A stretch of DNA of 64,000 nucleotides from Burkholderiales bacterium RIFCSPLOWO2_12_FULL_61_40 (GTDB lineage Bacteria; Pseudomonadota; Gammaproteobacteria; Burkholderiales; Burkholderiaceae_C). Below, in pieces: positions 456 through 27,547 of this stretch. The notes under the pieces were generated by a model. It worked only from the letters and a program-made list of their open reading frames with translations. It had not been told where the DNA came from and did no database searches. The translations under genes and the position numbers were made by a program. The number at the start of each line of letters is the position of its first letter. Position 1 is the first letter of the stretch. Where the stretch lies: contig MESI01000037.1 in NCBI GenBank assembly GCA_001770935.1, positions 32,520 through 96,519 of the forward strand. Direction: 5' to 3'.

Positions 456-1025
456 GATGCTCCCTTTTTGTTTTTACTTGTTACCTTGCTGCTTTTCACT
501 GCACCATTGCCAACTGTTTTTAGAGCAGATTTTCTGGGTGCTTGTAACTCCGCGGGGGCGAGATAGCGCAGCTCCCGGCGTAGCTCCTGCTGCAACTCTT
601 CTTCTGTTGGCAAGTGAACTGCCAATGCGAAGCAGATGGCGATAGTGACTCCATGACAGCCCCGAGTGCAAAATGCCCGGCGCCCAATCAAGGTCAGCAG
701 AATTCCGAGACAGTGTGTCGGAATTGTGGTCCGTCGGGTCGGTGTTCATCAAATTCCGAGACGCTGTCTCGGAAATCAACAGCGGATAGTCAATATAGAA
801 CTGCCTGAAAGCCTCCAGGTTGTCCACCGAGTAACCACGTCCAAAGTCAAAGGTCAGCTGCTTGGAAAGCTCAGCCACTACTTGCGCGGTATTGACGCTG
901 CGAGCGGCCTGGTTGCGCGCAGCCTGCAAGATTTCACGAACACGACCATACAAAGCCGGTGTGGACGCATCTGCTTTCACAAGCTTTTTTTTAGGGGCAG
1001 ATTTTTTGGCTGCCTCGGTGCTCAT
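452..1025 (-). pseudogene. DUF1016 (YhcG/PDDEXK nuclease family) gene with interior deleted and frame lost
   Basis: N-terminal part in ORF 474..1025 (YGRVREILQAARNQAARSVNTAQVVAELSKQLTFDFGRGYSVDNLEAFRQFY...LHSGLSWSHYRHLLRI); C-terminal motif LPTEEELQQELRRELRYL continues in ORF 452..691, another frame; nuclease core absent. Confidence 0.65.
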
Positions 1026-1495
1026 GCCGCATCCCCACCAAACAAATCATCTTGCGCCGGGGTGTCTGCCACCTTTTTCTGCGCCATCGGCAGGTTGGCC
1101 ACGTTCAGGCTGTAGTCGTCATGGCCCCACTCGCAGCGGTCTTTCACCATCTTGGGAATTTTCTTGAGCGTGAGGTTGGGCCAGCGTTGGGCAGCTTGCG
1201 CAGCCGTCACGCCGCGATAAGCGCCGCAGCACACCAGCAGACTGCGCGGGTCGTTGGGGTCGATGCCCACCTCGTGGCTCAGCGCCTCCAGTTGCTCAGG
1301 CCCCAGCGTTTGGATGACGCCCTTGGACAAGGGGCTTTGGAAGTCGAATAGGGCCGCTTCGACCTGGTGCGGATTCAGGTCCACCTGGGCATCGACCAGG
1401 GTGGAGGCCAGCAGATCGGCGGAGTCTGCACCCATACGGCGTGACAAAAGCCACGCTAGGTACTGGGACTGGTAGGGGGTGGAGATTGGCGGCAC
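1022..1495 (-). pseudogene. Fusion remnant: SNF2/DEAD helicase N-terminus joined to DNA methyltransferase C-terminus
   Basis: MPPISTPYQSQYLAWLLSRR...STLVDAQVDLNPHQVEAALFDFQSPLSKGVI is a helicase N-terminus ending just before the expected Walker A; then ...NLTLKKIPKMVKDRCEWGHDDYSLNVANLP...DDLFGGDAA looks like a methyltransferase C-terminus. Confidence 0.55.
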
Positions 1496-4120: not shown

Positions 4121-4625
4121 GCTTGTAATATTGCCCAAGGCATGTCCAAAAGTTGCAAGCCCCGGGGCTGCGAATTTTTACGCTTGCGTGCTCAGATTCG
4201 CTGGGTGGGGGCCTTGCATGCATCCTGGCGAAGGCCCCTGTGGCTCAAGCCCAGGCTGACCCAGCCATCGTCAAACAGGGCGTCGAGTTTTTTCTGCAAG
4301 CCAAGAAGTTTCCAGATCATGGTGGGCATCCTCTCTTTAGAAATGGGGGCGCTTGTTCAACAAGTGGGCGCGTTGCAAGGCAAAAAATTCCAGTACGCCC
4401 CACAGGATGCAGGCTGGCAATGCGACATACCGAAAGAAAGCAGCGTTGCGGGTCATAGAAGGGCGCCTTTGCATGAACAGACTGCCAAGGTAATGGTCTT
4501 GTGTGACAGCGTTATGTCAGTGCGAAATTCAGACACAGGCTGTGCAAAATCTGTTCTGACCATGGCATCCCCTGTATGCTTTTGTGCTGCGCCGGGGCGT
4601 TTTCCTGGCATTTTTTTAGGCACTT

Positions 4626-5639
4626 GTGGCAACGCATCAACTTCCCGAATTGGACGCGCTGGAACGCATCATTGAATTGGGTGCCGGGCAGTTGGAGAGC
4701 CGCACGGTGGCTAGCGTGACCCTGCCCCAGGGGGGCGTTTACCCCATCCATGCGGTGCTGCTGGGGAATCCGGATAAATCTGTCCCGGCCGTCGGTTATT
4801 TCGGTGGTGTGCATGGCTTGGAGCGGATCGGTGCGGAAGTGGTCATCGCCTATTTGCAAAGCCTGGTCATGCGCTTGCAGTGGGACAGCACCCTGCACAA
4901 ACAACTGGAGTCGGTGCGACTGGTGTTTATGCCCATCGTCAACCCCGGTGGCATGGCGGTAGGTACGCGTGCCAACCCCCAGGGGGTGGACCTCATGCGC
5001 AATGCCCCCATCTCTTCCGAAGAGTCTGTTCCTTTTTTGGTAGGTGGGCAGCGCATCAGCGCCCGTTTGCCCTGGTACCGGGGCGCGCAGTCCGCCCCGA
5101 TGGAAATCGAAAACCAGGCGGTCTGCGAGGTGGTGGCTGCGGAGTTGCTGACCCGGCCCTTCAGCGTGGCGGTGGACTGCCACTCGGGTTTTGGGTCGCG
5201 TGACCGCATCTGGTTTCCGTACGCCCACACCCGGGCCTGTATTGCCCATTTGGCGGAGATCCAGGCGTTGAAACATATTTTTGTGCAGTCCAACAGCCAC
5301 CACCGCTATATCTTCGAGCCGCAAAGCCAGCAGTATCTGGCCCATGGTGACCTGTGGGATTATTTGTACAAGCTCTCGTGTGTGCAGACGCAAGGCATAT
5401 TTTTGCCGCTCACGCTGGAGATGGGCTCCTGGCTGTGGGTCAAGAAAAATCCGCGCCAACTGTTTTCCCGGCACGGCATTTTTAATCCATTGATTGAGCA
5501 CCGGCAGCAGCGGGTGCTGCGGCAGCACCAGTCTTTATTGGACTTTTTGTCGCGTGCGGCGTGCGGCCACCGCCTGTGGTTGCCCCATGCCGAGAACCGG
5601 GCTCAGTTTCACGCCCAGGCCCTACAGGATTGGTACTGA
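4626..5639 (+). CDS. M14-family zinc carboxypeptidase / DUF2817-like peptidase
   Basis: GVHGLERIGAEV, NPGGM, VDCHSGFGSRDRIW, and LEMGSW motifs. Confidence 0.7.
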   Translation: MATHQLPELDALERIIELGAGQLESRTVASVTLPQGGVYPIHAVLLGNPDKSVPAVGYFGGVHGLERIGAEVVIAYLQSLVMRLQWDSTLHKQLESVRLVFMPIVNPGGMAVGTRANPQGVDLMRNAPISSEESVPFLVGGQRISARLPWYRGAQSAPMEIENQAVCEVVAAELLTRPFSVAVDCHSGFGSRDRIWFPYAHTRACIAHLAEIQALKHIFVQSNSHHRYIFEPQSQQYLAHGDLWDYLYKLSCVQTQGIFLPLTLEMGSWLWVKKNPRQLFSRHGIFNPLIEHRQQRVLRQHQSLLDFLSRAACGHRLWLPHAENRAQFHAQALQDWY

Positions 5640-7145
5640 AGACGTTTCCCGCCCTGCGGCAAGGCCACGCAAAAACTCCACCAGACCGGGGTCCACCGGT
5701 AGCTTGGCGGCCAGCGCACTGGCTTGCGTGATGTCACGGGCGCTCCCAATGCTGGTTTGCAGTGCCGTGGCTTTCTGGTGCCAGCGTTGTGCACGCCGCT
5801 TCCAAAGAAGGGGTTCCAGTGCCTCAATTCCGTAACGCAAACGCTTGGCGAATATGCGTATGCGGTGCAGGTCTTCCGCACCAGGTGCGTCCTGGGTGGC
5901 ATCCTCCATGCGCTTGTGCAAACGGGCAATGCGCCGCCGTGCCCACGGCCGCAACGGCATCGGCATCGGCACTTCTGTAGCGGTGTGGCCTGGCACGGGG
6001 GGTGTTGTCAGCTCTTCCAGCCACTGTGTGGTTGCCAGCAAGGCCAGGCCGATGGCCGGTGTTTGGAGTGCAGTTTGCACGGACTTTCTCTGGCTAGCCG
6101 CCGCGGTGGCCAGGGTGCCCAACATGGTTTCAAAGGTTTGCACCCGTTGGGCATCACCCTGGGCATAGGCGTCAAGGAACGGAGGCAAAGTTTCGGTCAG
6201 TGCGACATCCAGATCCCGAAGTGTGCCCAGGTCGCTCAGGAAAGGGCGCAGAGCCAACCACGGCGGGTTCGCGTGGGCGGGCAGCGCCGGCTTGAAAAGC
6301 CGCAAAGCACTTTTGAAACGGCGCCAACCGACCCGGGCCTGGTGCACCACTTCAGGAGCATCCGAGGTGTACAAAACAAGGAGGTTGGATGTGAATTGGC
6401 TGAACATTTCGCGCAGCACCCGCCCCGCTGCCTCGTGCAATGCAAGCTCGCGGGTCAATTCCGGAGGTCTGGCCCGCACTGGCCTGTCCCATGTGTTTTG
6501 CGCCAGCGCATACCCGCGTTCCGCTTTGCTGGTGTTCGCAGGCAGCACCGCAATGGTGGTCGCAATGCTCTGGGCGGTATCGAACAGTGCTTTGGGCGTG
6601 CCTGACAATAGTTCAAACTCCAGTTCGCAGATGGGTGCGCTGTTCTCACCGGTCACGATCTGCCCGACATCCAGGGCCACTTCCACCGAACTGCCATCAG
6701 TTACGCGTACCAGCCAACTGCTGCGCTCAAAGCTGGTCGTGAAGCAGGGCGCAAGTGCCTGGAATACCTGCCCGCTTGGGTCTATCTGCGACCACGGTGT
6801 GGCCTCCAGCGCATGCAAGTCCAGCGCACCGTTGGGTACCGCCACTTCCCACTCCCCGCGTTGACTGAGCGCTGAATCGCTGGCGCCACCCATCTTGAGT
6901 GTTTGCAGCCACTGGGGATGCTTGTCGCTGCCCACGCGCCTGAGGCGCAAGGCAATGCGGGCTTGGTGCAGGACTTGGTCCGGCGTGTCGAAGTAAATGT
7001 TGTGCAGCTGCCTGACGCTGGCTTTCTTGCGCGATAAAAGTGGGGTCCGGGCCAAGCGTTGTGCCAGCTGCGACGGGTCTTGTGTTGGCACGGCCAGCTT
7101 GAGTTCAACTTCGGTGGGGTGGGGATTCGGTGCATCGGATTTCAT
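5622..7145 (-). CDS. CYTH-CHAD domain protein (inorganic triphosphatase / polyphosphate-associated)
   Basis: EVELKLAVP, NIYFDTPDQVLHQARIALRLRR (CYTH), then VHQARVGWRRFKSALRLF...LHRIRIFAKRLRYGIEAL (CHAD). Start placed at MKSDAPN. Confidence 0.88.
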   Translation of the reverse strand: MKSDAPNPHPTEVELKLAVPTQDPSQLAQRLARTPLLSRKKASVRQLHNIYFDTPDQVLHQARIALRLRRVGSDKHPQWLQTLKMGGASDSALSQRGEWEVAVPNGALDLHALEATPWSQIDPSGQVFQALAPCFTTSFERSSWLVRVTDGSSVEVALDVGQIVTGENSAPICELEFELLSGTPKALFDTAQSIATTIAVLPANTSKAERGYALAQNTWDRPVRARPPELTRELALHEAAGRVLREMFSQFTSNLLVLYTSDAPEVVHQARVGWRRFKSALRLFKPALPAHANPPWLALRPFLSDLGTLRDLDVALTETLPPFLDAYAQGDAQRVQTFETMLGTLATAAASQRKSVQTALQTPAIGLALLATTQWLEELTTPPVPGHTATEVPMPMPLRPWARRRIARLHKRMEDATQDAPGAEDLHRIRIFAKRLRYGIEALEPLLWKRRAQRWHQKATALQTSIGSARDITQASALAAKLPVDPGLVEFLRGLAAGRETSSVPIL

Positions 7146-7201
7146 GTTTTCAGCGTCTCCCATAGATCCGCACAGTATGCCGCGAAGCACTCCACCGGTC
7201 C

Positions 7202-7241
7202 GTCATGAAAATTTCATTGTGATGTCACCCGCTCGTCATTT
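7202..7241 (+). promoter_or_regulatory. Tandem PHO-box array upstream of siaA-like operon
   Basis: GTCATGAAAAT-TTCATTGTGAT-GTCACCCGCTC-GTCATTT: core units at 7202, 7213, 7224, 7235, exactly 11 bp apart. Confidence 0.75.
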
Positions 7242-7281
7242 GGTTTGACTATCGTCACTTTTATCAAACACAGGAGCAGCA

Positions 7282-8568
7282 ATGCTGACGATCGAAAGCC
7301 TCTACGAATCCCTGGCCGCCACCGCAGAAGACGATATACCGGGCTCCACCGCCATGGTCACGCGGGCTGAGCAGATGGCGCGCAGCCAGGAGGCCGCCTC
7401 TGCGGATACGACCAACGAGCAGCTTCGGGAGATGTTTGCACGCATTGAGGGGGTTTCCACGATCGCGGTGGTCGAGAACGGGCGCCCTATTGGTCTGGTC
7501 AATCGGCATGTTTTTATGGAGCAGTATGCCAAGCCGTACGCCCGTGACCTGTATGGACGCAAGAGCTGCATTGCCTTCATGGACAAGTCTCCCTTGATCG
7601 TTCCGGTGTCGACGCCGGTGGAAGTCCTGGTCAAGGCCGCAGTGGATTCGGGTGGCAAGGTTCTGGACGATGGGTTCATCACCACCTTGAATGGCGAATA
7701 CCACGGTGTGGGAACCGGGTTTGGCTTGGTCAAAGCCATGTCGGAAATCGAGGCTGAGAAGACACGGCAACTAATGGCCAGCATCAATTACGCCAGCCTG
7801 ATTCAGCGCTCTCATTTGGTGGAGTCAGACCAGGTGTTGCGCCACGACATAGGCGACTACGGCTTGATCTGGAAACCGCGGGACGTGGTCGGAGGCGATG
7901 CCTATTTCTTTCGCAAGGTGGCCGACGGTGTATTTGGTTGTGTGTTTGATTGCACGGGGCACGGTGTGCCAGGTGCGTTTATGACCTTGATTGTTTTGTC
8001 ATTTCTGGAGCAAATGGTTCTGCCTGAAGCCAGTGACATTGATCCTGGCGCGATTTTGGGGCAGATGAATGTGTATATCAAACGGGTCTTGCGCCAGGAA
8101 GATCGCTCTTCCAGCGACGTGGCCTCGGGGGAGAAAATTTCTAACGACGGACTGGATGCGGCCGCGTTTGTATTGGCGCCCGATCACAGCGGCTTGCGCT
8201 TTGCTTCCGCCAAGTTGAGCCTGTTGGTCGCACGGGAGGGCAGTGCCGAGATTGAAGTGGTGGATGCAGACAAACACGGCATCGGTTACGCGGACACGCC
8301 GCTTGCAACCCAATGGACTACGCGCCAAGTCGAGCTGGGGAGTCAATGCATGGTGGTGATTCCTACCGATGGTGTGATTGACCAGATTGGCGGCAGCAAG
8401 GCGATTGCGCATGGCCGCAGGCGTCTGGTGCAGTTCATGACAGAACACCGCTCGCTGGACGCGGGCAAACTGGTCAGTGCCTTTGAGGATAGCTTTTCCC
8501 AGTGGCAGGACAGCCAGAAGCGGCGCGACGACGTGACCATGCTGGCCTTTGGTACACGCAGGTGCTGA
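7282..8568 (+). CDS. PP2C/SpoIIE-type phosphatase with N-terminal CBS-like sensor (SiaA-like)
   Basis: VVGGDAYFF, DCTGHGVPGAFMT, TDGVIDQ, RRDDVTM phosphatase motifs; followed by SiaB- and SiaC-like genes. Confidence 0.85.
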   Translation: MLTIESLYESLAATAEDDIPGSTAMVTRAEQMARSQEAASADTTNEQLREMFARIEGVSTIAVVENGRPIGLVNRHVFMEQYAKPYARDLYGRKSCIAFMDKSPLIVPVSTPVEVLVKAAVDSGGKVLDDGFITTLNGEYHGVGTGFGLVKAMSEIEAEKTRQLMASINYASLIQRSHLVESDQVLRHDIGDYGLIWKPRDVVGGDAYFFRKVADGVFGCVFDCTGHGVPGAFMTLIVLSFLEQMVLPEASDIDPGAILGQMNVYIKRVLRQEDRSSSDVASGEKISNDGLDAAAFVLAPDHSGLRFASAKLSLLVAREGSAEIEVVDADKHGIGYADTPLATQWTTRQVELGSQCMVVIPTDGVIDQIGGSKAIAHGRRRLVQFMTEHRSLDAGKLVSAFEDSFSQWQDSQKRRDDVTMLAFGTRRC

Positions 8569-8569
8569 T

Positions 8570-9139
8570 ATGAACCTCAACACTTTTGAGATTTTTCAGG
8601 CCCAGGCCCAGGCGTCGGGCATTATTTTTTACCACAGCGGTGAGTTCACCGGCGCCATCATTACGGCCGCTGCCGAATCTTTGAAGCACCGCATAGAGGA
8701 GTCTGGCGCATCCGGCCCTGCCAAGCGCAAGCTGTTTTCCACCTTTGTGGAAATGGCGCAAAACATTCTTCACTATGCGGCGCTGCCCCCAGGTGCAGAC
8801 CCAGCGTTTGTCCATGGCAAACCCGGAACGATCGGCATCGGCAAGTGCGGCGATGACTATTGGGTGGTGTGTGTCAATCGGGTCGAGACGGCGCATATCG
8901 CGCGCTTGTCCGAAAAACTCGATGCGGTGCGCTCCATGAGCCTGGAAGATATTCGCAAGAGCTACCGCGCGCAGCTTCACAACACGGAGCATGCGGCGCA
9001 GGACACCCTGAGCAAGGGGGCGGGCCTGGGCTGGCTCACGATTGCACGCGATAGCAAGCAGCCGCTGGAGTACAGCTTCACTTCAGAGCCCGAGTCCCTG
9101 GGCAAAACAGCCTTCTTTTTTGTCAAAGCCGTTATCTGA
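8570..9139 (+). CDS. SiaB-like (DUF6272) protein kinase-like
   Basis: MNLNTFEIFQAQAQASGIIFYHSGEFTGAIITAAAESLKHRIE...FVEMAQNILHYA; between SiaA- and SiaC-like genes. Confidence 0.8.
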   Translation: MNLNTFEIFQAQAQASGIIFYHSGEFTGAIITAAAESLKHRIEESGASGPAKRKLFSTFVEMAQNILHYAALPPGADPAFVHGKPGTIGIGKCGDDYWVVCVNRVETAHIARLSEKLDAVRSMSLEDIRKSYRAQLHNTEHAAQDTLSKGAGLGWLTIARDSKQPLEYSFTSEPESLGKTAFFFVKAVI

Positions 9140-9181
9140 TTTGCGGCACACCCATTTCTGTCACCCTTTGAAAGTACCACT

Positions 9182-9568
9182 ATGCAAATTCTCAGAGCAA
9201 CCCGTACCGCAGTGACCCCTGAAATCGTTTTTTCACGCGCAGAAAACAAGCTGCTGATTGATGGCGAGTGTTATCCCGAAAATCCGCTGCCATTTTTTAC
9301 GCCCATTGTGGGGGCACTCAAGGCGCACCTGGAAAGTCACCGGCCCAGCCAATTCGATGCCCATATGCGTCTGCAGTACGTGAACAGCGCCTCCACCAAA
9401 GGCCTGCAAACCATCATTTCCGTGCTGAACGATGCGGGGAGCCAAGGTACCAATGTGAATGTGTACTGGACGCATGATCCAGAAGACGACGCGATGGAAG
9501 AGTTGGGGCAGGATTTGGTGGAGGATTTCGCCAACGTGCTGCTGTTTCGCCAGCCCCTGGCTGCCTGA
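9182..9568 (+). CDS. SiaC-like (DUF1987) regulatory protein
   Basis: Small protein with YPENPLPFFTPIVGALKAHL...NSASTKGLQTIISVLNDA...VYWTHDPEDDAMEELGQDL. Confidence 0.85.
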   Translation: MQILRATRTAVTPEIVFSRAENKLLIDGECYPENPLPFFTPIVGALKAHLESHRPSQFDAHMRLQYVNSASTKGLQTIISVLNDAGSQGTNVNVYWTHDPEDDAMEELGQDLVEDFANVLLFRQPLAA

Positions 9569-9579
9569 ACTGCAGCCTG

Positions 9580-10593
9580 TTAGTCGCGCTGCTTTTTAAC
9601 CGCCACCCACCCGGCGACCAGGGTGAAGGTAATGATGATGGCGACGACGATCCAGAATCCGTGGGAGTGGTCAGCCCAAGGTATGCCACCTACGTTCATG
9701 CCAAGCAAGCCTGCGATGATGTTGATGGGCAGTGCCAATACGGTGACTACCGTTAGCACAAACAGGCTGCGGTTGTTGGCCTCGGCAACCCGGCCGGCAA
9801 TTTCTTCCTGCAACAGTTTGATCCGTTCCTGTAGTGTTGCCATATCACTCAGGGCTACGTTAAATTCTTCGGTGGATTGGCGCAGGTCTTGCAGGTCTTC
9901 CTCGTCGATCCATACGGGCGGTTTTCTCAAAAGGCGAAACAAGGCCGCCGGTTCCGGTGCCAGCAGGCGTTGCAGGCGCACCAGAAGACGCCGAAGCGAT
10001 CCCAAATCAGCCCGCTTGGTCTCCATGCGCCCTGACAGTAATTTGTCTTCAATGCCATCCACGCGTGAAGTGGTCCCGCGAACAATGTTGACCAGAACGT
10101 CACCCTGGTCATGCATCAAATGCACCAGCAGCGCCACTGTTGAGCGCATTGGGGTGCCGCGTTTAACGGCATCGCGCAGGCGGTCAATGGAGCGCAGAGG
10201 CTGCATTCGCACACTAACGACCAGCCGCGCGCTGACGGACAGCCACAAAGTCGAGATATCGGAAGGTTCGAACGCAAAATCGTAGTTGACGTCGTTCACC
10301 ACGGCCACCAGGGTGTCGTCATCCAGTTCAACCCGGGTGGAGCGCGAGCCATCGCGCAAAGACTCGTGAAATACGTTGGACAGTTTGACGCGTTCACGCA
10401 ACCATTTTTCTGTGGCGGAGTGTGCCAGGTTGAAGTGGAGCCATACAAAGCCCTGCGCAGGATCCGCGACAGAGAGCCATTCAAGTGCCTGTTCGGTTTC
10501 GATCGCTTTTCCATGCCCGTCGGCACCGAAATGGAAACCACAGATCAGTCCATTGGAATCACAACCATAAGTCAGGGTAGTAGGGAAAGACAT
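9580..10593 (-). CDS. CorA/ZntB-family metal transporter
   Basis: C-terminal LPINIIAGLLGMNVGGIPW (GMN motif) with two TM segments. Confidence 0.9.
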   Translation of the reverse strand: MSFPTTLTYGCDSNGLICGFHFGADGHGKAIETEQALEWLSVADPAQGFVWLHFNLAHSATEKWLRERVKLSNVFHESLRDGSRSTRVELDDDTLVAVVNDVNYDFAFEPSDISTLWLSVSARLVVSVRMQPLRSIDRLRDAVKRGTPMRSTVALLVHLMHDQGDVLVNIVRGTTSRVDGIEDKLLSGRMETKRADLGSLRRLLVRLQRLLAPEPAALFRLLRKPPVWIDEEDLQDLRQSTEEFNVALSDMATLQERIKLLQEEIAGRVAEANNRSLFVLTVVTVLALPINIIAGLLGMNVGGIPWADHSHGFWIVVAIIITFTLVAGWVAVKKQRD

Positions 10594-12800: not shown

Positions 12801-13861
12801 AACTGGCCCTCGTTACGGATGCATGGCTACCCCAGGTCAATGGTGTTGTCACAACGCTGGTGGAACTGGTTCGGGAGATGGAAGGCCTGGGGCACCAGGT
12901 GGTGGTGATCCACCCCGGCCTTTTCAAAACCCGGCCCTGTCCGGGTTATGCGGGCATTGACCTGGCGGTTCGGCCTGCCAAAGCATTGGCCCGTCAACTG
13001 GACGAGATGGCGCCCGATGTTGTGCACCTTGCCACCGAGGGGCCGCTGGGCTGGGCGGCCCGGCGCTACTGCCTTCAGCGCAAGCTGGCCTTCACCACGG
13101 CCTTTCACACCCGGTTTCCTGAGATTTTGAAGGCGGCCCTCAAAATACCGCTGTGGCTGGGCTATGCGGTGTTTAGGCACTTTCACAGGCCTTCCAGTGG
13201 TGTACTGGTGCCCACGCCGAGCGTGTTGCACATGCTGCACGCACGCGGGTTCAAAAATCTGCGCAGCTGGACCCATGGCGTGGATATGCAATTGTTCAGC
13301 TACAAGGAGTCGCCAGAGGTCTATGCGCCTCTGGGAATACTGGCGCGGCCGGTGTCGCTGTTTGTGGGGCGGGTGTCGTATGAGAAAAACATCGATGCCT
13401 TCCTGAAGCTGGATGTGCCCGGTACCAAGGTGGTGTGCGGGGTGGGGCCGCTGGAAACACAGTTGCGGGAGCGTTATCCGCATGTGCGCTGGCTCGGGCT
13501 GTTGCCGCGCGATGAGTTGGCACAGGTGTACGCGGCTGCGGATGTGTTTGTGATGCCCAGCCAGTCAGAAACGTTTGGCCTGGTGATGCTGGAGTCTATG
13601 GCCAGTGGAACGCCGGTGGCCGCTTACCCCGTGGAGGGACCACTCGAAGTGGTCGGCAGCCCGGCCCAGGGAGGGGTATTGGAAAAAGACCTTTCCACAG
13701 GGTGGTACAGCGCACTGACGGTTCCCCGCCATGAGGCTCGGGCTCGGGCCATGGCATTCAGTTGGGCGTATGCTTCGTTGCTGTTTCTTGGGCATTTGGT
13801 GCCCGCGAGGCAGGGGAAGGTGTTGGACCCGGTTGCCATTGCGCGCAGTGCTGTCACATAA
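12797..13861 (+). CDS. GT4-type glycosyltransferase (Agt-like candidate)
   Basis: VKLALVTDAWLPQVNGVVTTL...GVDMQLF...FVGRVSYEKNIDAFL...MPSQSETFGLVMLESMASGTPVAAYPVEGP; GTG start overlaps preceding TGA. Confidence 0.85.
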   Translation: MKLALVTDAWLPQVNGVVTTLVELVREMEGLGHQVVVIHPGLFKTRPCPGYAGIDLAVRPAKALARQLDEMAPDVVHLATEGPLGWAARRYCLQRKLAFTTAFHTRFPEILKAALKIPLWLGYAVFRHFHRPSSGVLVPTPSVLHMLHARGFKNLRSWTHGVDMQLFSYKESPEVYAPLGILARPVSLFVGRVSYEKNIDAFLKLDVPGTKVVCGVGPLETQLRERYPHVRWLGLLPRDELAQVYAAADVFVMPSQSETFGLVMLESMASGTPVAAYPVEGPLEVVGSPAQGGVLEKDLSTGWYSALTVPRHEARARAMAFSWAYASLLFLGHLVPARQGKVLDPVAIARSAVT

Positions 13862-13902
13862 CTGTCATTTCAACCGTCAACAATTCTTCATCTTATTGTC
13901 AT
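13851..13902 (+). promoter_or_regulatory. PHO-box cluster upstream of ppk
   Basis: CTGTCACATAACTGTCAT (GTCA at 13853 and 13864) then GTCA/TTCA/GTCA at 13876, 13887, 13898 (11-bp spacing); first box overlaps the glycosyltransferase stop codon. Confidence 0.8.
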
Positions 13903-13918
13903 AGTCAGATTGGGAGCC

Positions 13919-16024
13919 ATGTCGCCTACTTTTCGCCAACTCAAATCACAAGATGTGGGAAACGCACCGGAGTTACTGGACCGTGACCAGAGTCTGCTGG
14001 CATTCAATGAGCGGGTGCTGGATTGGGCTGTGCGTGACGACGTGCCCTTGATGGAACGGCTGCGTTATTTGTGCATCGTTTCTTCCAATCTGGATGAGTT
14101 TTTCGAAGTCCGAGCCGAACCGCATCTGGCAGCCAACCGGGCCAATGACCGCAAGGGCGTGTACACGGTGGATACTTTTGAGCGTTTGGCTGGGGCTTTG
14201 CACCATTTGGTCGCTCGCCAATACGCGTTGTACAACGAAAAACTGATGCCTGCATTCGAGGCGCAGGGCATCAAAATCATGTCGCACGGCGAGCGCAACA
14301 CCGTGCAACGGCAGTGGGTTCGGCAGTATTTTGAACGTGAAGTGCGCCCTTTGCTGATTCCGGTGGGGCTGGACCCCTCACACCCGTTTCCGCAGGTGGC
14401 CAACAAGTCCTTGAACTTTATTGTGCGCTTGAGTGGCAAGGATGCCTTTGGGCGCGAGAACGAAATTGCCATCGTCAAAGTGCCGCGTGTGTTGCCGCGC
14501 CTGATCCGCATGCCCGACAAGGTGTCCGGCGGAGTGACCATGTTTGTTTCCTTGTCCAGTGTCATCCGGGCGCATTTGTCCGAGTTGCTGCCGGGTCGCA
14601 CCGTGGGCCAGTTTTCACAATTCCGCGTCACCCGGCATTCGGACCTGGCGGTTGATGAGGAAGATGTCCAGAATTTGCGCACCGCCTTGCGCGCGGGGCT
14701 GGAGGTGCGCCACTACGGTCAGGCCGTGCGGCTGGAGGTTTCCGCTGGTTGCTCGGAGTATCTGGCCGAATTTTTGCTCAAAGAGTTTGATCTGCCACAA
14801 CAGGCGCTGTACCGGGTGGCGGGTCCGGTGAATCTGGTACGCCTGACCCAGTTGATTGATTTGCTGGACCGGCCTGACCTGTGTTTCACGCCCTACAAGG
14901 CCAGTTACCCCGTGCAAATGAACCATGGGCAGTGTATTTTTGACCAGCTCAAACTGGGCGACATTCTGATCCACCAGCCTTTTGAGAGTTTTGACGGTGT
15001 GCTGGCTTTTTTGCGGGAAGCGGTCAACGATCCCCAGGTGTTGGCGATCAAACAGACCATTTACCGCACCGGTTCCGACTCCACCCTGATGGATTTGCTG
15101 CGTGAAGCGGTGCGGCGTGGCAAGGAAGTGACGGTGGTGGTTGAACTCAAGGCGCGGTTTGACGAAGAGGCCAACATCAACTGGGCCGAAATGCTGGAAT
15201 CCATTGGTGCACAGGTGGTTTACGGTGTGGTGGGCTTAAAGACCCACGCCAAGATGATGCTCATTACCCGGCGCGAGGGCAGAGCGCTCAAGCGTTACGG
15301 GCACTTGTCTACCGGGAATTACAACCCGCGCACCGCAGGCCTTTACACCGACCTGAGCCACATCACCGCCGATACGGCACTCACGGCTGATATGGAGCAT
15401 GTGTTTGTGCATCTGGCCAGCCACAGCAAGTTGCCCCGTTTGCGCAAGGTCTGGATGGCGCCTTTTTACCTGCACCGCAATCTCATCGGCAAAATCGACA
15501 GTCTGGGCGTGGCGGCTGGCAAGGGAAATCCGTCCCGCATCGTTGCCAAAATGAATTCGCTGACCGATGAAGCCCTGATTCGCAGTCTGATGCGGGCGGG
15601 GGCGCAGGGGGTCAAAATTGACCTGATCGTACGTGGCGCCTGCATGTTGCCCGCACAAGTACCTGGCCATACCGACAACATCCGGGTGCGCTCCATCATT
15701 GGCCGCTTTTTGGAACATTCCAGGGTGTTCTATTTCCGCCAGGGTGAGGTGGAGGAGCTGTATCTGTCCAGTGCGGACTGGATGAACCGCAACATGGTGC
15801 GCCGCGTGGAATTGGCGTGGCCCGTGACCGATGCCGTGCAGCGCCAGCGCATTGTGGACGAATGCCTGGTGGCGTATTTGCATGACGGCGTGGATGCCTG
15901 GGACATGGGGCCTGACGGAACTTACACCCACGTCCAAGGGGATGGCAAAACGGCCGTGCATGGTGCACAGGCCGCATTAATGGTGCGGTATGGCCGCAAT
16001 GTGCCGGGGAAACGGGGAGTTTAA
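13919..16024 (+). CDS. ppk: Polyphosphate kinase 1
   Basis: Full-length PPK1: LLAFNERVLDWA, LCIVSSNLDEFFEVR, KQTIYRTGSDSTLMDLL, LKARFDEEANINWAEMLE, GLKTHAKMMLITRRE, LSTGNYNPRTAGLYTDLS. Confidence 0.97.
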   Translation: MSPTFRQLKSQDVGNAPELLDRDQSLLAFNERVLDWAVRDDVPLMERLRYLCIVSSNLDEFFEVRAEPHLAANRANDRKGVYTVDTFERLAGALHHLVARQYALYNEKLMPAFEAQGIKIMSHGERNTVQRQWVRQYFEREVRPLLIPVGLDPSHPFPQVANKSLNFIVRLSGKDAFGRENEIAIVKVPRVLPRLIRMPDKVSGGVTMFVSLSSVIRAHLSELLPGRTVGQFSQFRVTRHSDLAVDEEDVQNLRTALRAGLEVRHYGQAVRLEVSAGCSEYLAEFLLKEFDLPQQALYRVAGPVNLVRLTQLIDLLDRPDLCFTPYKASYPVQMNHGQCIFDQLKLGDILIHQPFESFDGVLAFLREAVNDPQVLAIKQTIYRTGSDSTLMDLLREAVRRGKEVTVVVELKARFDEEANINWAEMLESIGAQVVYGVVGLKTHAKMMLITRREGRALKRYGHLSTGNYNPRTAGLYTDLSHITADTALTADMEHVFVHLASHSKLPRLRKVWMAPFYLHRNLIGKIDSLGVAAGKGNPSRIVAKMNSLTDEALIRSLMRAGAQGVKIDLIVRGACMLPAQVPGHTDNIRVRSIIGRFLEHSRVFYFRQGEVEELYLSSADWMNRNMVRRVELAWPVTDAVQRQRIVDECLVAYLHDGVDAWDMGPDGTYTHVQGDGKTAVHGAQAALMVRYGRNVPGKRGV

Positions 16025-17161: not shown

Positions 17162-17203
17162 TCACAGGGGTCAATTCAGGTGCAATGGCGCGTTGCCCGG
17201 CTT

Positions 17204-17243
17204 GTCATCTCTCTGTAATGCCACTGTCATTGAGTCGTCATTT
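17204..17243 (+). promoter_or_regulatory. Tandem PHO-box array upstream of EAL/GGDEF gene
   Basis: GTCATCTCTCT-GTAATGCCACT-GTCATTGAGTC-GTCATTT: cores at 17204, 17215, 17226, 17237, exactly 11 bp apart. Confidence 0.72.
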
Positions 17244-17284
17244 CTCGGGCATAAACTGATTTATGTCATCAGCAGGAGAAATTT

Positions 17285-19102
17285 GTGCACCTTCAATTGT
17301 TGCGGAATGTGACCCGGGTTTCGGAAGTCGCCGGGAGGCAGGGGCCTTTGGAGAGTTTGCTGCACGAGCGCCTGCTTTACCCGGTGTTTCAGCCCATTGT
17401 TCAGCTGGGTAATGCGTCCATTTATGCCCACGAGGCCTTGATACGTGGTCCGCAGGGCACGGCATTGCACACGCCCGATGCGCTCTTGCGGGCTGCAGCA
17501 CAGGAGCACCTCAGTTACGAGTTCGAGATTGCCTGCCTGGAGGCCGCCATGCAAACCTGGGGGCAACTGCGGGTGGCAGGCCGTTTGTTTGTCAACATCA
17601 GTGCCATGGCCCTGACGCAGTTGTTTGCACTGCGCGGACGTGAAGCGCTGCTGGGGCTGATCGCGGGGTTTGGAGTTGTTCCACGTATGCTGGTGCTGGA
17701 GATTACCGAACACGAGCGTGTGGAAGACATGGACCATCTGGCGCAGGTGGTTTCAGAAGTCCGTTCCGCAGGAGTGGCACTGGCCTTGGATGATTTTGGG
17801 GACGGGCGCTCCAGCTTGCGGCTGTGGTCGCAGCTCAAGCCCGAGCTGGTCAAGATCGACAAGTACTTCACCCGCAACATCAGTGAACACGGCGACAAGC
17901 TCAAAACCATCCAGGCCTTGCAGCAAATCGCCGAGATTTTTGGCACGCAGCTGGTGGCCGAGGGGATTGAAACCCCGGAAGACCTGCGGGTGCTGCGTGA
18001 CCTCGGAATCACCTATGGACAGGGGTATTTTCTGGGGCATCCGGACCGCAAACCCCTGAAGTACCTGGGGGTCGATGCCTTGCGGGTTTTGCGCGAGCGC
18101 CAGGTGGCCGTTTTTCCGGAGTTGACACGGTCTACGCCGGGCGGACATCTGCGCAGCCTTTCGCTGGTGCGGGCGCCTACGGTGGGTCTGGACACCAGCA
18201 ATGACGAGTTGGCCTCCATTTTTTTGGACATGCCAGACTTGCACGCCGTGGCCCTGGTGAACACCGAACGACCGGTGGCCATCATCAACCGCGTGCAATT
18301 CATGAACGAATACACCAAGCTGTATTACCGCGAAGTGTGGGGCCGGAAATCCTGTGCGGTGCATGCCAATTTCGAGCCCCGCATCATTGAGCGGGACCAC
18401 AGCGTTGATGAGCTGGTGGGTATCTTGACCTCACAAGACCAGCGCTACCTGAGCGACGGATTTATCGCCACGGAGAATGGCCGCTATGCGGGTTTGGGCA
18501 CCGGCGACCAGTTGGTGCGCTCGGTCACCGAGGTGCGCATTGAAGCGGCCCGCCACGCCAATCCCCTGACGTTTTTGCCCGGCAATATTCCCATCAGCCA
18601 GCACATCGAACGTTTGCTCAAAAAAAAGGCCCGGTTTGTGGCTTGTTATGCCGATTTAAACCATTTCAAACCCTTTAACGACCACTACGGTTATTGGCGC
18701 GGGGACGAGATGATCCGCCTGGTGGCCAAAATTGCCATGGAGCAGTGCGACCCCCAGTGGGATTTTTTGGGGCATGTGGGTGGGGATGATTTCATCCTGC
18801 TGTTCCAAAGCCCGGACTGGCAGCTGCGGTGTGAGCGTTTGGTGGTGGAATTCGCCGCCAGAGCGGAAGCCATGTTTGACGAAGATGCCAGGCGCCAAGG
18901 GGGAATTCAGGCCGAAGACCGGCATGGTGTTTCCCGGTTTTTTCCTTGCACCACCCTGTCCATCGGTGCCGTGGTCATTGATGGCAGCCAGTTTTCCAGG
19001 GCCGAAGACGTGGCCAACCTGGCCGCTTCTGCCAAACACGACGCCAAACAGAGCGGTGGTGGGGTGTTTGAAAGAGTGACCCCTGTTTCAACGCAGGTTT
19101 GA
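17285..19102 (+). CDS. EAL - CBS-like sensor - GGDEF bifunctional c-di-GMP protein
   Basis: IYAHEALIRGP (EAL), LALDDFGDGRSSLRLWSQLKPELVKID, sensor RPVAIINRVQFMNEYTKLYYREVWGRKSC, and GGDDF in HVGGDDFILL. GTG start. Confidence 0.92.
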   Translation: MHLQLLRNVTRVSEVAGRQGPLESLLHERLLYPVFQPIVQLGNASIYAHEALIRGPQGTALHTPDALLRAAAQEHLSYEFEIACLEAAMQTWGQLRVAGRLFVNISAMALTQLFALRGREALLGLIAGFGVVPRMLVLEITEHERVEDMDHLAQVVSEVRSAGVALALDDFGDGRSSLRLWSQLKPELVKIDKYFTRNISEHGDKLKTIQALQQIAEIFGTQLVAEGIETPEDLRVLRDLGITYGQGYFLGHPDRKPLKYLGVDALRVLRERQVAVFPELTRSTPGGHLRSLSLVRAPTVGLDTSNDELASIFLDMPDLHAVALVNTERPVAIINRVQFMNEYTKLYYREVWGRKSCAVHANFEPRIIERDHSVDELVGILTSQDQRYLSDGFIATENGRYAGLGTGDQLVRSVTEVRIEAARHANPLTFLPGNIPISQHIERLLKKKARFVACYADLNHFKPFNDHYGYWRGDEMIRLVAKIAMEQCDPQWDFLGHVGGDDFILLFQSPDWQLRCERLVVEFAARAEAMFDEDARRQGGIQAEDRHGVSRFFPCTTLSIGAVVIDGSQFSRAEDVANLAASAKHDAKQSGGGVFERVTPVSTQV

Positions 19103-21836: not shown

Positions 21837-21884
21837 CGGTATTTTGAATCAATAGAATGGATGAATTCGCAAGGGATCGCTGGT

Positions 21885-21940
21885 TTTTGCTATCAAATTA
21901 GTAGCTTCTTGCGCAGTATCCATGGGTGTTAGAGCGCGAT
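21885..21940 (+). repeat. Dispersed repeat family 1, copy 3
   Basis: TTTTGCTATCAAATTAGTAGCTTCTTGCGCAGTATCCATGGGTGTTAGAG. Confidence 0.75.
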
Positions 21941-22146
21941 TTGATATAAAAATCGGGCGCCAACAACTCGCCGGATCTTGGCCTGGCTTATTTCTTGGCA
22001 GGGGGGGCATGAGCACCGTGTCCACCAGGGGCATCCCGCCATGCTGGCGGCAAGGGCTGCGGCGAGCACGGCATGTGGTGGTCAAGAGGGTGCTGCTTGT
22101 CATGGGTTTACTTCAGTTTGAACCCCAGGAGCGTAGAAAGTTTGTG

Positions 22147-22183
22147 TGACGAAGATGTGACATTTTTTCGAAAAAGGGGTGAC
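22147..22183 (-). promoter_or_regulatory. Reverse-oriented PHO-box candidate
   Basis: TGAC cores at 22147, 22158 and 22180 (11-bp phase, one degenerate unit between). Confidence 0.5.
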
Positions 22184-22220: not shown

Positions 22221-22249
22221 TTGTCACACGGATGTCATAAATTCTTCTT
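22221..22249 (+). promoter_or_regulatory. PHO box upstream of pstS
   Basis: TTGTCACACGGATGTCATAAATTCTTCTT: cores at 22223, 22234, 22245. Confidence 0.8.
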
Positions 22250-22290
22250 AAAGTGCAGACATTCCTTAACCAACCTACCAAGGGTATTTG

Positions 22291-23334
22291 ATGAACTTCT
22301 CTTTTAATCGCGCTGTTCTGGCTGTGCTGACAACAACGTCTTTGAGTTTTGCAGGTGTTACCAGCGCCCAGGAAATTACCGGTGCAGGTGCGACTTTTCC
22401 CGCTCCCATCTATGCCAAGTGGGCTTCGGATTACTACAAGGCCACTGGGGTCAAAGTCAACTACCAGTCCATTGGCTCTGGTGGCGGCATCAAGCAGATT
22501 GACTCCAAGACGGTGGACTTTGGTGCGTCTGACATGCCATTGACCGACGAAGTTCTGAAAACCAAGGGCCAAATGCAGTTCCCCACCGTTATGGGTGGCG
22601 TGGTGCCAGTGATCAACGTCAAAGGCATTGAACCAGGTCAGTTGAAGCTGACAGGCCCGTTGTTGGGTGATATTTTTCTGGGCAAGGTGTCCCGTTGGAA
22701 TGACCCCGCCATCAAGGCTTTGAACCCCACGCTGCCTTTGCCCGATGCCGCCATTGCCCAGGTGCGCCGCGCCGACGGATCTGGCACCACCTTCATCTTC
22801 ACCAACTACCTGAGCAAGGTCAATGCCGAGTGGAAGGCGAAAGTGGGAGAGGGTACGGCCGTGAACTGGCCCGCTGGCGCGGGTGGCAAGGGCAACGAGG
22901 GGGTGGCCGCATTTGTGGGTCGCCTGCCCAATTCCTTGGGGTATGTCGAGTACTCGTATGTGAAGCAAAACAAGCTGAACTATGCAGTGATGCAAAACTC
23001 CGCGGGCAACTTTGTGAAACCTGAGGATGACTCCTTCAAGGCCGCCGCCGCCGGTGCCGACTGGAGCAAAACCTTTTACCACATCCTGACCAATCAGCCT
23101 GGCAAGGACGCGTGGCCCATCAGCGGTGCAACCTTCATCCTGATGCACACCAAGCAGGACAAACCCGCCAGTGCCACTGAAGCTTTGAAGTTCTTCAGCT
23201 GGGCATACAAAAATGGCGATGCAACGGCTGCTGCGCTGGACTACGTTCCCATGCCTGACTCCGTGGTTGCGGCCATTGAGAAGTCCTGGGGTGAGATCAA
23301 GGACCCTGCTGGCAAGCCAGTGTCCTTCAAGTAA
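22291..23334 (+). CDS. pstS: Phosphate ABC transporter substrate-binding protein
   Basis: [22 protein letters not shown]...GSGGGIKQI...DFGASDMPL; precedes pstC/A/B. Confidence 0.97.
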
Positions 23335-23375
23335 GCGGATTCAAGCATCGAGACCGGACTGACGGAGAACGCACC

Positions 23376-24407
23376 ATGTCATCTACACTCGCGCATGGGG
23401 CTTCCCCGTCCAATTCGCCTGCTATTTTGTCCACTCGAGCAATGACCAAACCTCCTCCCTCAAAAAGGCCCCGTACCGGGCCCATGGCCGATCGCATATT
23501 TGGCTGGGTGGCCAAGGGGGCGGCATTGCTGACCTTGGGCCTGTTGTTGGCCATATTGGCCTCGCTCACCGTCAGTGCGTGGCCTGCCATCAGCAAATAC
23601 GGGCTGTCTTTTCTGGTGAACAGCACGTGGGACCCGGTACAGGAGGAGTTCGGCGGTCTGGTCATGATTTATGGCACGGTCTTCACTTCCTTCATTGCCT
23701 TGCTGATTGCGGTACCGGTAAGTTTCGGCATCGCCCTGTTCTTGACGGAGTTGTCGCCAGCGTGGCTCAAGCGTCCCCTGGGTACCGCGGTGGAACTGCT
23801 GGCGGCGGTTCCCTCGATTGTGTATGGCATGTGGGGCTTGCTGGTCTTTGGCCCGGTGCTGGCGACCTATGTGCAGCAACCTCTGCAATCCCTGTTTGCC
23901 GATGTGCCGTATCTGGGGGCCTTTGTCTCCGGCCCGCCCGTGGGCATTGGTATTTTGTCGGCCGGCATCATTTTGGCCATCATGATTATTCCGTTCATCT
24001 CTGCGGTGATGCGTGACGTGTTCGAGGTGACCCCGCCCTTGTTGAAAGAGTCTGCCTATGGCTTGGGCGCCACCACCTGGGAAGTGGTGTCCAAGGTGGT
24101 GCTTCCCTACACCAAGACGGGAGTCATTGGGGGCATCATGCTGGGACTGGGGCGCGCCATCGGAGAGACCATGGCGGTGACCTTTGTCATCGGCAATTTC
24201 AACCAACTGGATTCGGTGAGCCTGTTTCAGGCCGCCAACAGCATTACTTCGGCATTGGCCAACGAATTTGCGGAAGCGGGCGAAGGTTTGCACCAAGCCT
24301 CGCTGATGTATCTGGGGCTGGTGCTTTTCTTTATTACCTTTGTCATCCTGTCCTTGTCCAAAGTGCTGCTGTTACAGCTGCGCAAAGGCGAGGGAGAAAA
24401 AACATGA
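23376..24407 (+). CDS. pstC: Phosphate ABC transporter permease
   Basis: Membrane permease, gene order, [40 protein letters not shown]. Confidence 0.96.
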
Positions 24408-25267
24408 GCACTTCTGCGCTGCATCAGGCCCGTTTGGCCAAGTTTGCGCGACGCAAACGGGTCAACCTCCTGGCAACCACCCTGGCACTTTTGGCCATGG
24501 GATTTGGCTTGTTCTGGTTGTTCTGGATTCTGTGGGAAACCATTCGCCTGGGATTTGACGGCATGGCCCTGGCCACGCTGACCCAGATGACGCCGCCGCC
24601 CAATGAAGAAGGGGGCCTGGCCAACGCGATCTACGGGTCGTTCCTGATGGTGTTGCTGGCCACCTGTGTGGGCACACCGGTGGGCGTGATGGCAGGTATC
24701 TATCTGGCGGAGTTCGACACCAAAAGCTGGTTTGCTTCGCTGACACGTTTTGTGAACGATATCTTGTTGTCAGCGCCGTCCATTGTGGTGGGCCTGTTTG
24801 TCTATGCGGTGGTGGTATCGCGCTTTAAATCGTTTTCAGGGTATGCCGGAATCTTGGCGCTGTCCCTGATTGTGATTCCGGTGGTTATTCGCACCACCGA
24901 GAACATGTTGCAACTGGTGCCAGCCGGTTTGCGTGAAGCAGCCTATGCACTGGGGGCGCCCAAGTGGAAAGTGATATTGAGCATCACCCTCAAGGCGGCG
25001 CGTTCCGGGGTGATCACCGGTGTCTTGCTGGCCGTGGCCCGTATCGCTGGTGAAACGGCACCCCTGTTGTTTACGGCACTGAGCAATCAGTTCTGGACTT
25101 CCAGCCTGGGAGAACCCATGGCCAGTTTGCCGGTGACCATTTTCAAATTCGCCATGAGCCCCTATGAAAACTGGCAAAAACTGGCCTGGGCGGGCGTATT
25201 CCTGATCACGGTGGCGGTACTGGGGCTGAATATTCTGGCCCGTATCCTGACGCGCAACAAAATTTGA
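24404..25267 (+). CDS. pstA: Phosphate ABC transporter permease
   Basis: [45 protein letters not shown]. Confidence 0.96.
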
Positions 25268-25302
25268 CCGGGCTCTGAGCCCCCTAATCGAAAACACACC
25301 CT

Positions 25303-26082
25303 ATGCTAAGCACCACTGCAGCGCCGGAAAAAACAAAAATTTCGGTCAAAGACCTCAATTTTTATTACGGCAAGTTTCACGCCCTCAAGGGCATCAATCT
25401 GGAGATTCCAGAGAAGAAGGTCACCGCGTTTATCGGCCCATCGGGTTGCGGAAAATCCACGCTTTTGCGCATTTTCAACCGCATGTTCGAACTCTATCCT
25501 GAGCAGCGGGCGCAAGGCCAGGTCTTGCTGGATGGTGAAAACCTGCTGACCAGCAAGGAAGATGTAGCGTTGTTGCGTGCCAAGGTGGGCATGGTGTTCC
25601 AAAAGCCCACGCCCTTTCCCATGTCGATTTACGACAACATCGCCTTTGGCGTGAAGCTGTTTGAATCTCTGAACGCCTCCGACATGGACGAGCGCGTGGA
25701 ATGGGCCTTGCGCAAGTCCGCACTGTGGTCTGAAGTGAAAGACAAGTTGCACCAAAGCGGCTCCAGCCTGTCGGGCGGCCAGCAGCAGCGCCTGTGTATT
25801 GCACGCGGTATTGCCATCAAGCCCGAGGTTTTGCTGCTGGATGAGCCTTGTTCTGCGCTGGACCCGATTTCCACCGCCAAGGTCGAAGAATTGATTGTGG
25901 AACTCAAGAGCGACTACACCGTGGTAATCGTCACCCACAACATGCAGCAGGCAGCCCGCTGCAGCGACTACACGGCCTATATGTATTTGGGCGACCTGAT
26001 GGAGTTTGGCTCCACCGAGCAGATGTTCTTCAAGCCCACCCGCAAGGAAACAGAAGACTACATCACAGGACGGTTTGGTTAG
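25303..26082 (+). CDS. pstB: Phosphate ABC transporter ATP-binding protein
   Basis: [44 protein letters not shown]. Confidence 0.97.
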
Positions 26083-26098
26083 ATTGAGAGGAAATTAC

Positions 26099-26800
26099 AT
26101 GCCCGATAAACACTTATCCACCCAGTTCGACAGCGAACTGACCTCTGTTTCCAGCCGCGTCATGGAGCTTGGCGGCTTGGTGGAGTCCCAAATTCGCCAG
26201 GCCATCTACGCGCTGTCCCAGTTCAGCGTGGACGTGGCCAATGAAGTCAGCACCCGGGAGGCACAGGTCAATGCCATGGAGATTGAGATTGACCATGATC
26301 TCTCTTCCATCATTGCGCGCCGACAGCCCACCGCGCGGGATTTGCGCTTGCTCATCGCCATCTCCAAAACCACCGCCAATCTGGAGCGCGTGGGGGACGA
26401 GGCCGAAAAAATCGCCCGCATGGTGCGCTCCATCATCCACAGCGGTGCGCCCCGGTCCTTGCCCTCCCTGGAGCTGCGCGTGGCAGCCGACCTGGCCTCC
26501 GGTTTGCTCAACAAGGCCCTGGACGCTTTTGCACGGCTGGACGTGGCGGCTGCAGTGGCCATCCTGAAGGAGGACGACCTGATTGACAAGGAGTTCGACG
26601 GATTTGTGCGCAAGCTCATCACCTACATGATGGAAGACCCCCGCATGATTTCTCCCAGCCTGGACCTGTTGTTCCTGGCCAAGGCGATTGAGCGGATCGG
26701 CGACCACGCCAAGAACATTGCCGAGTTCATCATTTACGTGGTCAAGGGCGAGGATGTGCGCCACTCCAGCATGGAGCAAATCGAGTCCGTCATCAAATGA
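26099..26800 (+). CDS. phoU: Phosphate signalling protein PhoU
   Basis: STQFDSELTSVSSRVMELGGLVE...RRQPTARDLRLLIAISKTTANLERVGDEAEKIA. Confidence 0.96.
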   Translation: MPDKHLSTQFDSELTSVSSRVMELGGLVESQIRQAIYALSQFSVDVANEVSTREAQVNAMEIEIDHDLSSIIARRQPTARDLRLLIAISKTTANLERVGDEAEKIARMVRSIIHSGAPRSLPSLELRVAADLASGLLNKALDAFARLDVAAAVAILKEDDLIDKEFDGFVRKLITYMMEDPRMISPSLDLLFLAKAIERIGDHAKNIAEFIIYVVKGEDVRHSSMEQIESVIK

Positions 26801-27531
26801 GAAATATGCCCGCAGTCCTGGTGGTGGAGGATGAGCCAGCCATTGCTGAGCTGATCGCCGTGAACCTGCGGCACAACGGCTTTCGGCCTACCTGGGCCAT
26901 GGACAGTGCCAGTGCCCAGTGCGAACTGGATGCTGCCTTGCCCGACCTGATTCTGCTGGACTGGATGCTGCCCGGAGAGAGTGGACTGGTGCTGGCCAAA
27001 CGTTGGCGTGCCCACCCGCGTACCAAAACGGTGCCCTTGATCATGCTTACCGCACGGGGTGACGAGTCGGACCGTGTCGCGGGTCTGGACGCTGGCGCCG
27101 ATGATTACATTGCCAAGCCCTTTTCCACCAAAGAATTGCTGGCACGCATCCGTGCGGTGCTGCGCCGACGCGCGCCCGAGCCCGTGGGTGAGGCGATTGC
27201 CGTGGGGGGGCTGGTGCTGGACCCCGGCACACACCGGGTGTCTTTTGAAGACCAGCCCATCAAACTGGGGCCTACCGAATTCAAGTTGCTGCACTACCTG
27301 TTGGGGCATGCCGAGCGTGTGCACAGCCGCGCCCAGTTGCTCGACAAGGTCTGGGGTGACCATGTGTACATTGAAGAGCGCACGGTGGACGTGCACGTCA
27401 AGCGTTTGCGGGAAGCCCTGGGCCAGGCCGGTCCCTTGGTCGAGACTGTGCGCGGCGCGGGCTACCGCTTGACCGCCAAGCCGGTGGACAGCCCGGCGGG
27501 CCAGGCGGCTGTGGGGCGCTTAAGCGCCTGA
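26797..27531 (+). CDS. phoB: Phosphate response regulator PhoB
   Basis: Receiver domain plus winged helix; directly precedes phoR. Confidence 0.95.
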   Translation: MRNMPAVLVVEDEPAIAELIAVNLRHNGFRPTWAMDSASAQCELDAALPDLILLDWMLPGESGLVLAKRWRAHPRTKTVPLIMLTARGDESDRVAGLDAGADDYIAKPFSTKELLARIRAVLRRRAPEPVGEAIAVGGLVLDPGTHRVSFEDQPIKLGPTEFKLLHYLLGHAERVHSRAQLLDKVWGDHVYIEERTVDVHVKRLREALGQAGPLVETVRGAGYRLTAKPVDSPAGQAAVGRLSA

Positions 27532-27547
27532 CCCGCGACACGCTCCG

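Follow-up and report, generated by a model that had tools for sequence, protein, structure and literature searches.

What does an operon for a SiaABC-type phosphorylation switch do among the genes of a phosphate cluster, is it activated by PhoB, and on which protein does SiaC act when no siaD follows? The system is known from Pseudomonas aeruginosa, in which SiaA is a PP2C phosphatase, SiaB a kinase, SiaC their target and SiaD a diguanylate cyclase (PMC7647112, PMC8457831). In the DNA analyzed here (64 kb, from now on the window) a phosphate cluster with ppk, ppx and pstSCAB-phoU-phoBR occupies the first 29 kb, and siaABC lies within it (Table 1). The initial annotation of this DNA had proposed that the switch is under phosphate-starvation control, a proposal that comparison now strongly supports. 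We consider it probable that siaABC is a PhoB-activated operon encoding a SiaB/SiaA switch on SiaC, which in the absence of siaD would act on another protein.

Table 1. Coordinates of the features in the window
Feature	Position	Strand	Remarks
CYTH-CHAD gene	5622-7190	-	
PHO-box array before siaA	7200..7243	+	four 11-bp units: CCGTCATGAAA ATTTCATTGTG ATGTCACCCGC TCGTCATTTGG
Predicted -10 hexamer TATCGT	7250..7255	+	distance to last half-site as in pstS promoters
siaA-like, soluble, SpoIIE/PP2C phosphatase	7282..8568	+	Pfam SpoIIE PF07228, 65.8 bits
siaB-like protein kinase (DUF6272/SiaB family)	8573..9139	+	Pfam, 117.3 bits
siaC-like phosphoprotein	9182..9568	+	Pfam SiaC PF09345, 104.9 bits (cut-off 24.5)
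corA-like transporter gene	9580-10593	-	
PHO box and -10 before ppk1	13851..13884	+	23.9 bits; kept in G165
ppk1	13910-16024	+	with promoter
Second PHO array (four units) and -10 TAAACT before EAL-CBS-GGDEF gene	17202..17257	+	29.1 bits
EAL-CBS-GGDEF gene	17285..19102	+	CBS region homologous to SiaA N-terminus
PHO box and -10 before pstSCAB-phoU-phoB-phoR	22221..22254	+	31.5 bits
pstS-pstC-pstA-pstB-phoU-phoB-phoR	22288-28885		end of cluster
phoB, presumed regulator	26797..27531	+	TIGR02154 PhoB equivalog, 325.2 (cut-off 296.2)

Reading of the sequence gave the cores GTCA at 7202, TTCA at 7213, GTCA at 7224 and GTCA at 7235, at a spacing of exactly 11 bp and 44-80 bp upstream of the siaA ATG (7282), precisely as the initial annotation had placed them. 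The annotation had overlooked the -10 hexamer at the pstS offset and the presence of ppk1, ppx and pstSCAB-phoU-phoBR in the window. The siaA promoter has what is expected of a promoter of the Pho regulon: at least two GTCA-type half-sites 11 bp apart (four are present, the first two units being the poorer match), a predicted -10 at the fixed offset with the box apparently replacing the -35, and a predicted PhoB encoded in the same genome.

The pstS promoters of the same family (28, the window's own pstS left out) have a regular layout, TGTCAC-N5-TGTCACAAAA, followed at a fixed distance by a TAAAGT-like -10. Weight-matrix scoring had been proposed as a check. A strict two-half matrix built from pstS (22 or 40 positions) did not place the siaA array above its cut-off; in an array model whose weights were softened, again with the pstS promoters as sole training set, the array reached 23.4 bits. 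The 99.99% quantile of all positions on both strands (about 128,000) is 14.9 bits in this model. The array is thus among the top distinct sites of the window on both strands, the higher scores being those of pstS, the gene divergent from pstS, the EAL-CBS-GGDEF gene, a short ORF at 4.5 kb and ppk1. A pattern of three half-sites with at most one mismatch occurs four times in the window, twice in the siaA array and once upstream of ppk1 (0.39 occurrences expected; none of 100 shuffles reached four).

The operon encodes a PP2C phosphatase, a SiaB-like and a SiaC-like protein, as had been read from the translations and is confirmed by the matches to SpoIIE/PP2C, DUF6272 and PF09345. SiaA consists of an N-terminal CBS-like region (approximately residues 37-163), a helix and the SpoIIE/PP2C domain. 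It is a soluble CBS-PP2C phosphatase and lacks the membrane/HAMP architecture of the P. aeruginosa type. The CBS region, found in 15 of 18 SiaA homologues, was assigned from Pfam, a weak profile match to a CBS-domain chain and secondary structure, phmmer finding no PDB match to it. The AlphaFold model of SiaA matches SiaA-PP2C 6k4e (TM 0.85 of target); this P. aeruginosa SiaA phosphatase is also the best solved-structure match of the PP2C domain, and PP2C structures dominate the matches in a fold search with the whole model. The match to the NCBIfam equivalog NF038263 is confined to the PP2C part (159 bits, cut-off 700). SiaB exceeds the cut-off of the SiaB_fam_kinase family NF038262 (150.8 versus 85), stays below that of the equivalog NF038264 (69.3 versus 225), matches PDB 6kko (E = 2.5e-13) and retains the EMxQNIxHYA motif. 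SiaC matches PDB 6k4f and scores 65.6 with the equivalog NF038265 (cut-off 150); in the alignment, Thr68 of P. aeruginosa SiaC, the residue on which SiaB and SiaA act, corresponds to Ser69 here (codon 9386-9388). Since the equivalog cut-offs are reached by none of the three proteins, they are to be regarded as members of these families rather than as the P. aeruginosa proteins as such.

Is the array conserved? Between this genome (G000) and a sister species of the same genus (G165) the operon DNA is 84% identical, and no substitution falls in the four TCA cores or in the -10. Nearly all substitutions in the promoter lie directly 5' of the cores, and within the array they lie solely there. For a wider comparison 35 loci with a CBS-type siaA were used, including Acidovorax, Herbaspirillum, Cupriavidus, Vogesella, Paraburkholderia, Pseudomonas and Methylomonas; class-wide sampling for further CBS-type siaA added one new locus. 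The best upstream array of siaA had a median of 11.9 bits versus 0.8 bits for 414 other genes of the same loci (Mann-Whitney p = 1e-17, calculated without correction for phylogeny), siaA had the highest score of its own locus in 26 of the 35, and a TAnnnT hexamer stands at the same offset in many siaA orthologues. Upstream of the membrane-type (P. aeruginosa-like) siaA genes, which served as negative controls, the array score did not exceed 6.0 bits; the 11.3 bits recorded in the control set belong to another PP2C ORF, which is short and lies in an AT-rich locus. The expectation that related siaABC promoters share the array was borne out in most loci: a score of at least 9 bits was reached by 28 of the 35 CBS-type siaA (versus 28 of the 414 control genes), and in some relatives the array is weak or absent. 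The weak arrays of some close relatives score 8.8 (L142/G002), 4.9 (L146/G141) and 6.4 bits (L174/G179), L142 and L174 being the nearest relatives beyond the two-species pair; low scores were also obtained for L056, L045, L010 and L007, and in L056 and L045 the array is absent.

A de novo motif search in 32 regions upstream of siaA homologues, started from random positions and without a Pho prior, yielded GTCAt..aactGTCAtA with a -10 TAg at the right distance, which is the Pho box (log-likelihood 181 versus 65-70 for shuffled sequences). This result also bears on the question of which regulator binds. In regulators of the OmpR family the repeat spacing is a common property, and the array could belong to another member with 11-bp direct repeats, for instance a CreB-like protein recognizing TTCAC, which would leave the operon outside the Pho regulon. 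The array has one TTCA unit among its four, and TTCAC units are found in several of the homologue arrays. We nevertheless hold such a regulator to be highly improbable, because three of the four units are GTCA, the motif found de novo is of the GTCA type, the model trained on pstS scores the array like other Pho promoters, and the array lies inside a pst-phoBR-ppk cluster in a genome that has a PhoB equivalog. Control of the operon by PhoB is well supported by these comparisons, and on a basis broader than one genome.

The order of the genes in the cluster gives some hints to its history. Beyond corA follow genes for an OlsB-like GNAT protein, a metallophosphatase and a glycosyltransferase, then ppk1, a SixA-like phosphatase, EAL-CBS-GGDEF, ppx, a binding protein and the pst operon. 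The CorA-like gene separates siaC from the OlsB-like gene here; in the sister species it was not detected at this place. Among 61 genomes of the genus SiaC is present in just 4, the OlsB-like neighbor in 44. In G126, a genome of this genus, the same Pho cluster lacks siaABC. Because of this rarity and of the cluster in G126, siaABC appears to be either a recent arrival or a rare survivor. At the syntenic site, between CYTH-CHAD and the OlsB-like gene, G126 carries a PHO array (L155, 12233-12540) that precedes an ORF of about 80 amino acids, and in this genus siaABC might use a promoter already present at that spot. From the same two observations, the array in G126 and the scarcity of SiaC, one could argue that siaABC was inserted behind a pre-existing PHO promoter and that its wiring is a local accident of this lineage. 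This we consider improbable: the sequence of the G126 array differs outside the motif, and PHO arrays precede CBS-type siaA in many genera in which no pst/ppk/phoBR cluster is nearby. To judge from these promoters, CBS-type siaABC operons of many genera share the PHO wiring, which is not a peculiarity of this genome.

Two further PHO arrays in the window concern other genes. One on the minus strand (4337-4509, 24.6 bits) precedes an unlisted 45-amino-acid ORF (4337-4474) with one hydrophobic segment, which is conserved in the sister species. The other, also on the minus strand (~21840-22163), adjoins pstS divergently; in the sister species and in G126 it precedes the gene of a lipoprotein resembling a fasciclin-domain protein, and the counterpart in the window seems broken, its frame diverging from theirs after about 10 codons.

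On what does SiaC act? The initial annotation had implied control of SiaD as the output, which finds no support in this organism: the operon contains no siaD and the genome has no full-length SiaD match. In a sister clade the PHO-box operon runs on into a SiaD-type diguanylate cyclase of about 250 amino acids (siaABCD). The window's clade comprises eight species (support 100/100), and wherever its downstream DNA is readable no siaD follows siaC. Outside this clade siaD also seems to be missing in some loci (Duganella, Paraburkholderia, Bordetella), to judge from the next downstream ORF. A SiaD orthologue elsewhere in the genome was considered and rejected: in six genomes of the clade (G000, G002, G142, G001, G024 and G141) a SiaD query found nothing but generic GGDEF domains, and a query with the SiaC-binding stalk found nothing convincing in these six nor in the sister species. 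The absence in the source genome is bounded by an assembly of 5.0 Mb in 132 contigs (the window is on C37) that is 93% complete.

The phosphosite motif of SiaC reads F-N-S-S-S-T in siaD-bearing operons and mostly [VI]-N-S-A-S-T in the window's clade. In P. aeruginosa SiaC, residues of this motif contact SiaD (PMC8457831). The changed surface points to a different partner rather than to a dead module, because SiaA and SiaB retain their catalytic motifs; the switch in this organism looks intact. In one relative, L174 (G179), siaA and siaB are followed by two SiaC genes in tandem (496-1264, minus strand), the second SiaC with the altered motif VNTMGTK, which suggests two targets.

With siaD absent from the window's clade, SiaC would need a different target, probably a further enzyme of c-di-GMP metabolism. 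It might also be that Pho control is real and the switch has no c-di-GMP role, SiaC controlling an unrelated protein such as an anti-sigma factor or a metabolic target. The lack of SiaD in the six genomes and the changes in those SiaC residues that make contact with SiaD in P. aeruginosa would agree with this. We regard it as rather unlikely, though to be reckoned with, because the genome has some 50 further GGDEF matches, among which another cyclase could be the target, and because the same cluster encodes a Pho-controlled EAL-CBS-GGDEF protein. The PHO array of the latter gene is kept in the sister species and is found at the gene start in many orthologues. Its product has an intact EAL motif and a degenerate GGDD, and its CBS region matches the SiaA N-terminus with 37% identity over 122 amino acids.

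We favor a c-di-GMP enzyme as target of SiaC and propose the following mechanism. Upon phosphate starvation PhoB~P would bind to the four-unit array, which by comparison with other Pho promoters would substitute for a -35, and transcription of siaABC would start from the -10 at 7250. SiaB, which has the domain required, would phosphorylate SiaC, with Ser69 as the most likely site, and SiaA, as a CBS-PP2C phosphatase, would take the phosphate off again, if both act as their relatives in P. aeruginosa do. The phosphorylation balance is probably set by an intracellular ligand that the CBS region of SiaA senses. A PHO promoter combined with CBS sensing would mean that PhoB sets the amount of the switch and the CBS ligand its position. 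For the sister clade, the most likely protein to be activated by unphosphorylated SiaC is the SiaD-type diguanylate cyclase of the same operon, a place that another protein, probably a c-di-GMP enzyme, would take in the window's clade.

A bolder reading, quite possible to us if somewhat doubtful, is that CBS-type SiaABC is a widespread, previously undescribed Pho module of beta- and gammaproteobacteria, which shares its CBS sensor with the Pho-controlled EAL-CBS-GGDEF protein, so that one ligand could tune both arms, and that SiaC, deprived of SiaD in the window's clade, has acquired a new partner there. With Pho control of CBS-type siaABC, a Ser/Thr-phosphorylation switch best known from Pseudomonas, where it governs c-di-GMP and cell aggregation, would come under phosphate-starvation control in many genera. 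A siaABCD operon with a PHO box would allow starving cells also to raise c-di-GMP, under a second, ligand-gated condition, and the siaD-less clade would be a natural test of other targets of SiaC-family proteins.

A non-exhaustive search of the open-access literature yielded no paper linking SiaA, SiaB, SiaC or SiaD to PhoB, which is in line with the initial annotation, where such a wiring is not known to have been described, and PhoB is not mentioned in the two main SiaABC papers (PMC7647112, PMC8457831). Provisionally, we regard Pho control of SiaABC as new. With the SiaABCD system of P. aeruginosa the operon shares the three families, the gene order, the PP2C fold, a kinase of the SiaB family and a phosphorylatable residue at the position of Thr68. 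It differs in that SiaA is soluble, a CBS-like N-terminus replacing the membrane sensor part, in that siaD is missing and in that the promoter has a PHO box, which P. aeruginosa-type operons do not have.

In Pseudomonas fluorescens Pf0-1 the Pho-controlled phosphodiesterase RapA lowers c-di-GMP (PMC3032545). There, too, phosphate starvation is tied to c-di-GMP via PhoB and a Pho box, but RapA is a phosphodiesterase, whereas siaABC encodes a phosphorylation switch; by analogy, it is the EAL-CBS-GGDEF gene at 17285 that may be the counterpart of RapA. The siaA promoter resembles the classical Pho promoters of pstS and ppk in its 11-bp half-site repeats and the fixed offset of the -10, and differs from them in having four units instead of two.
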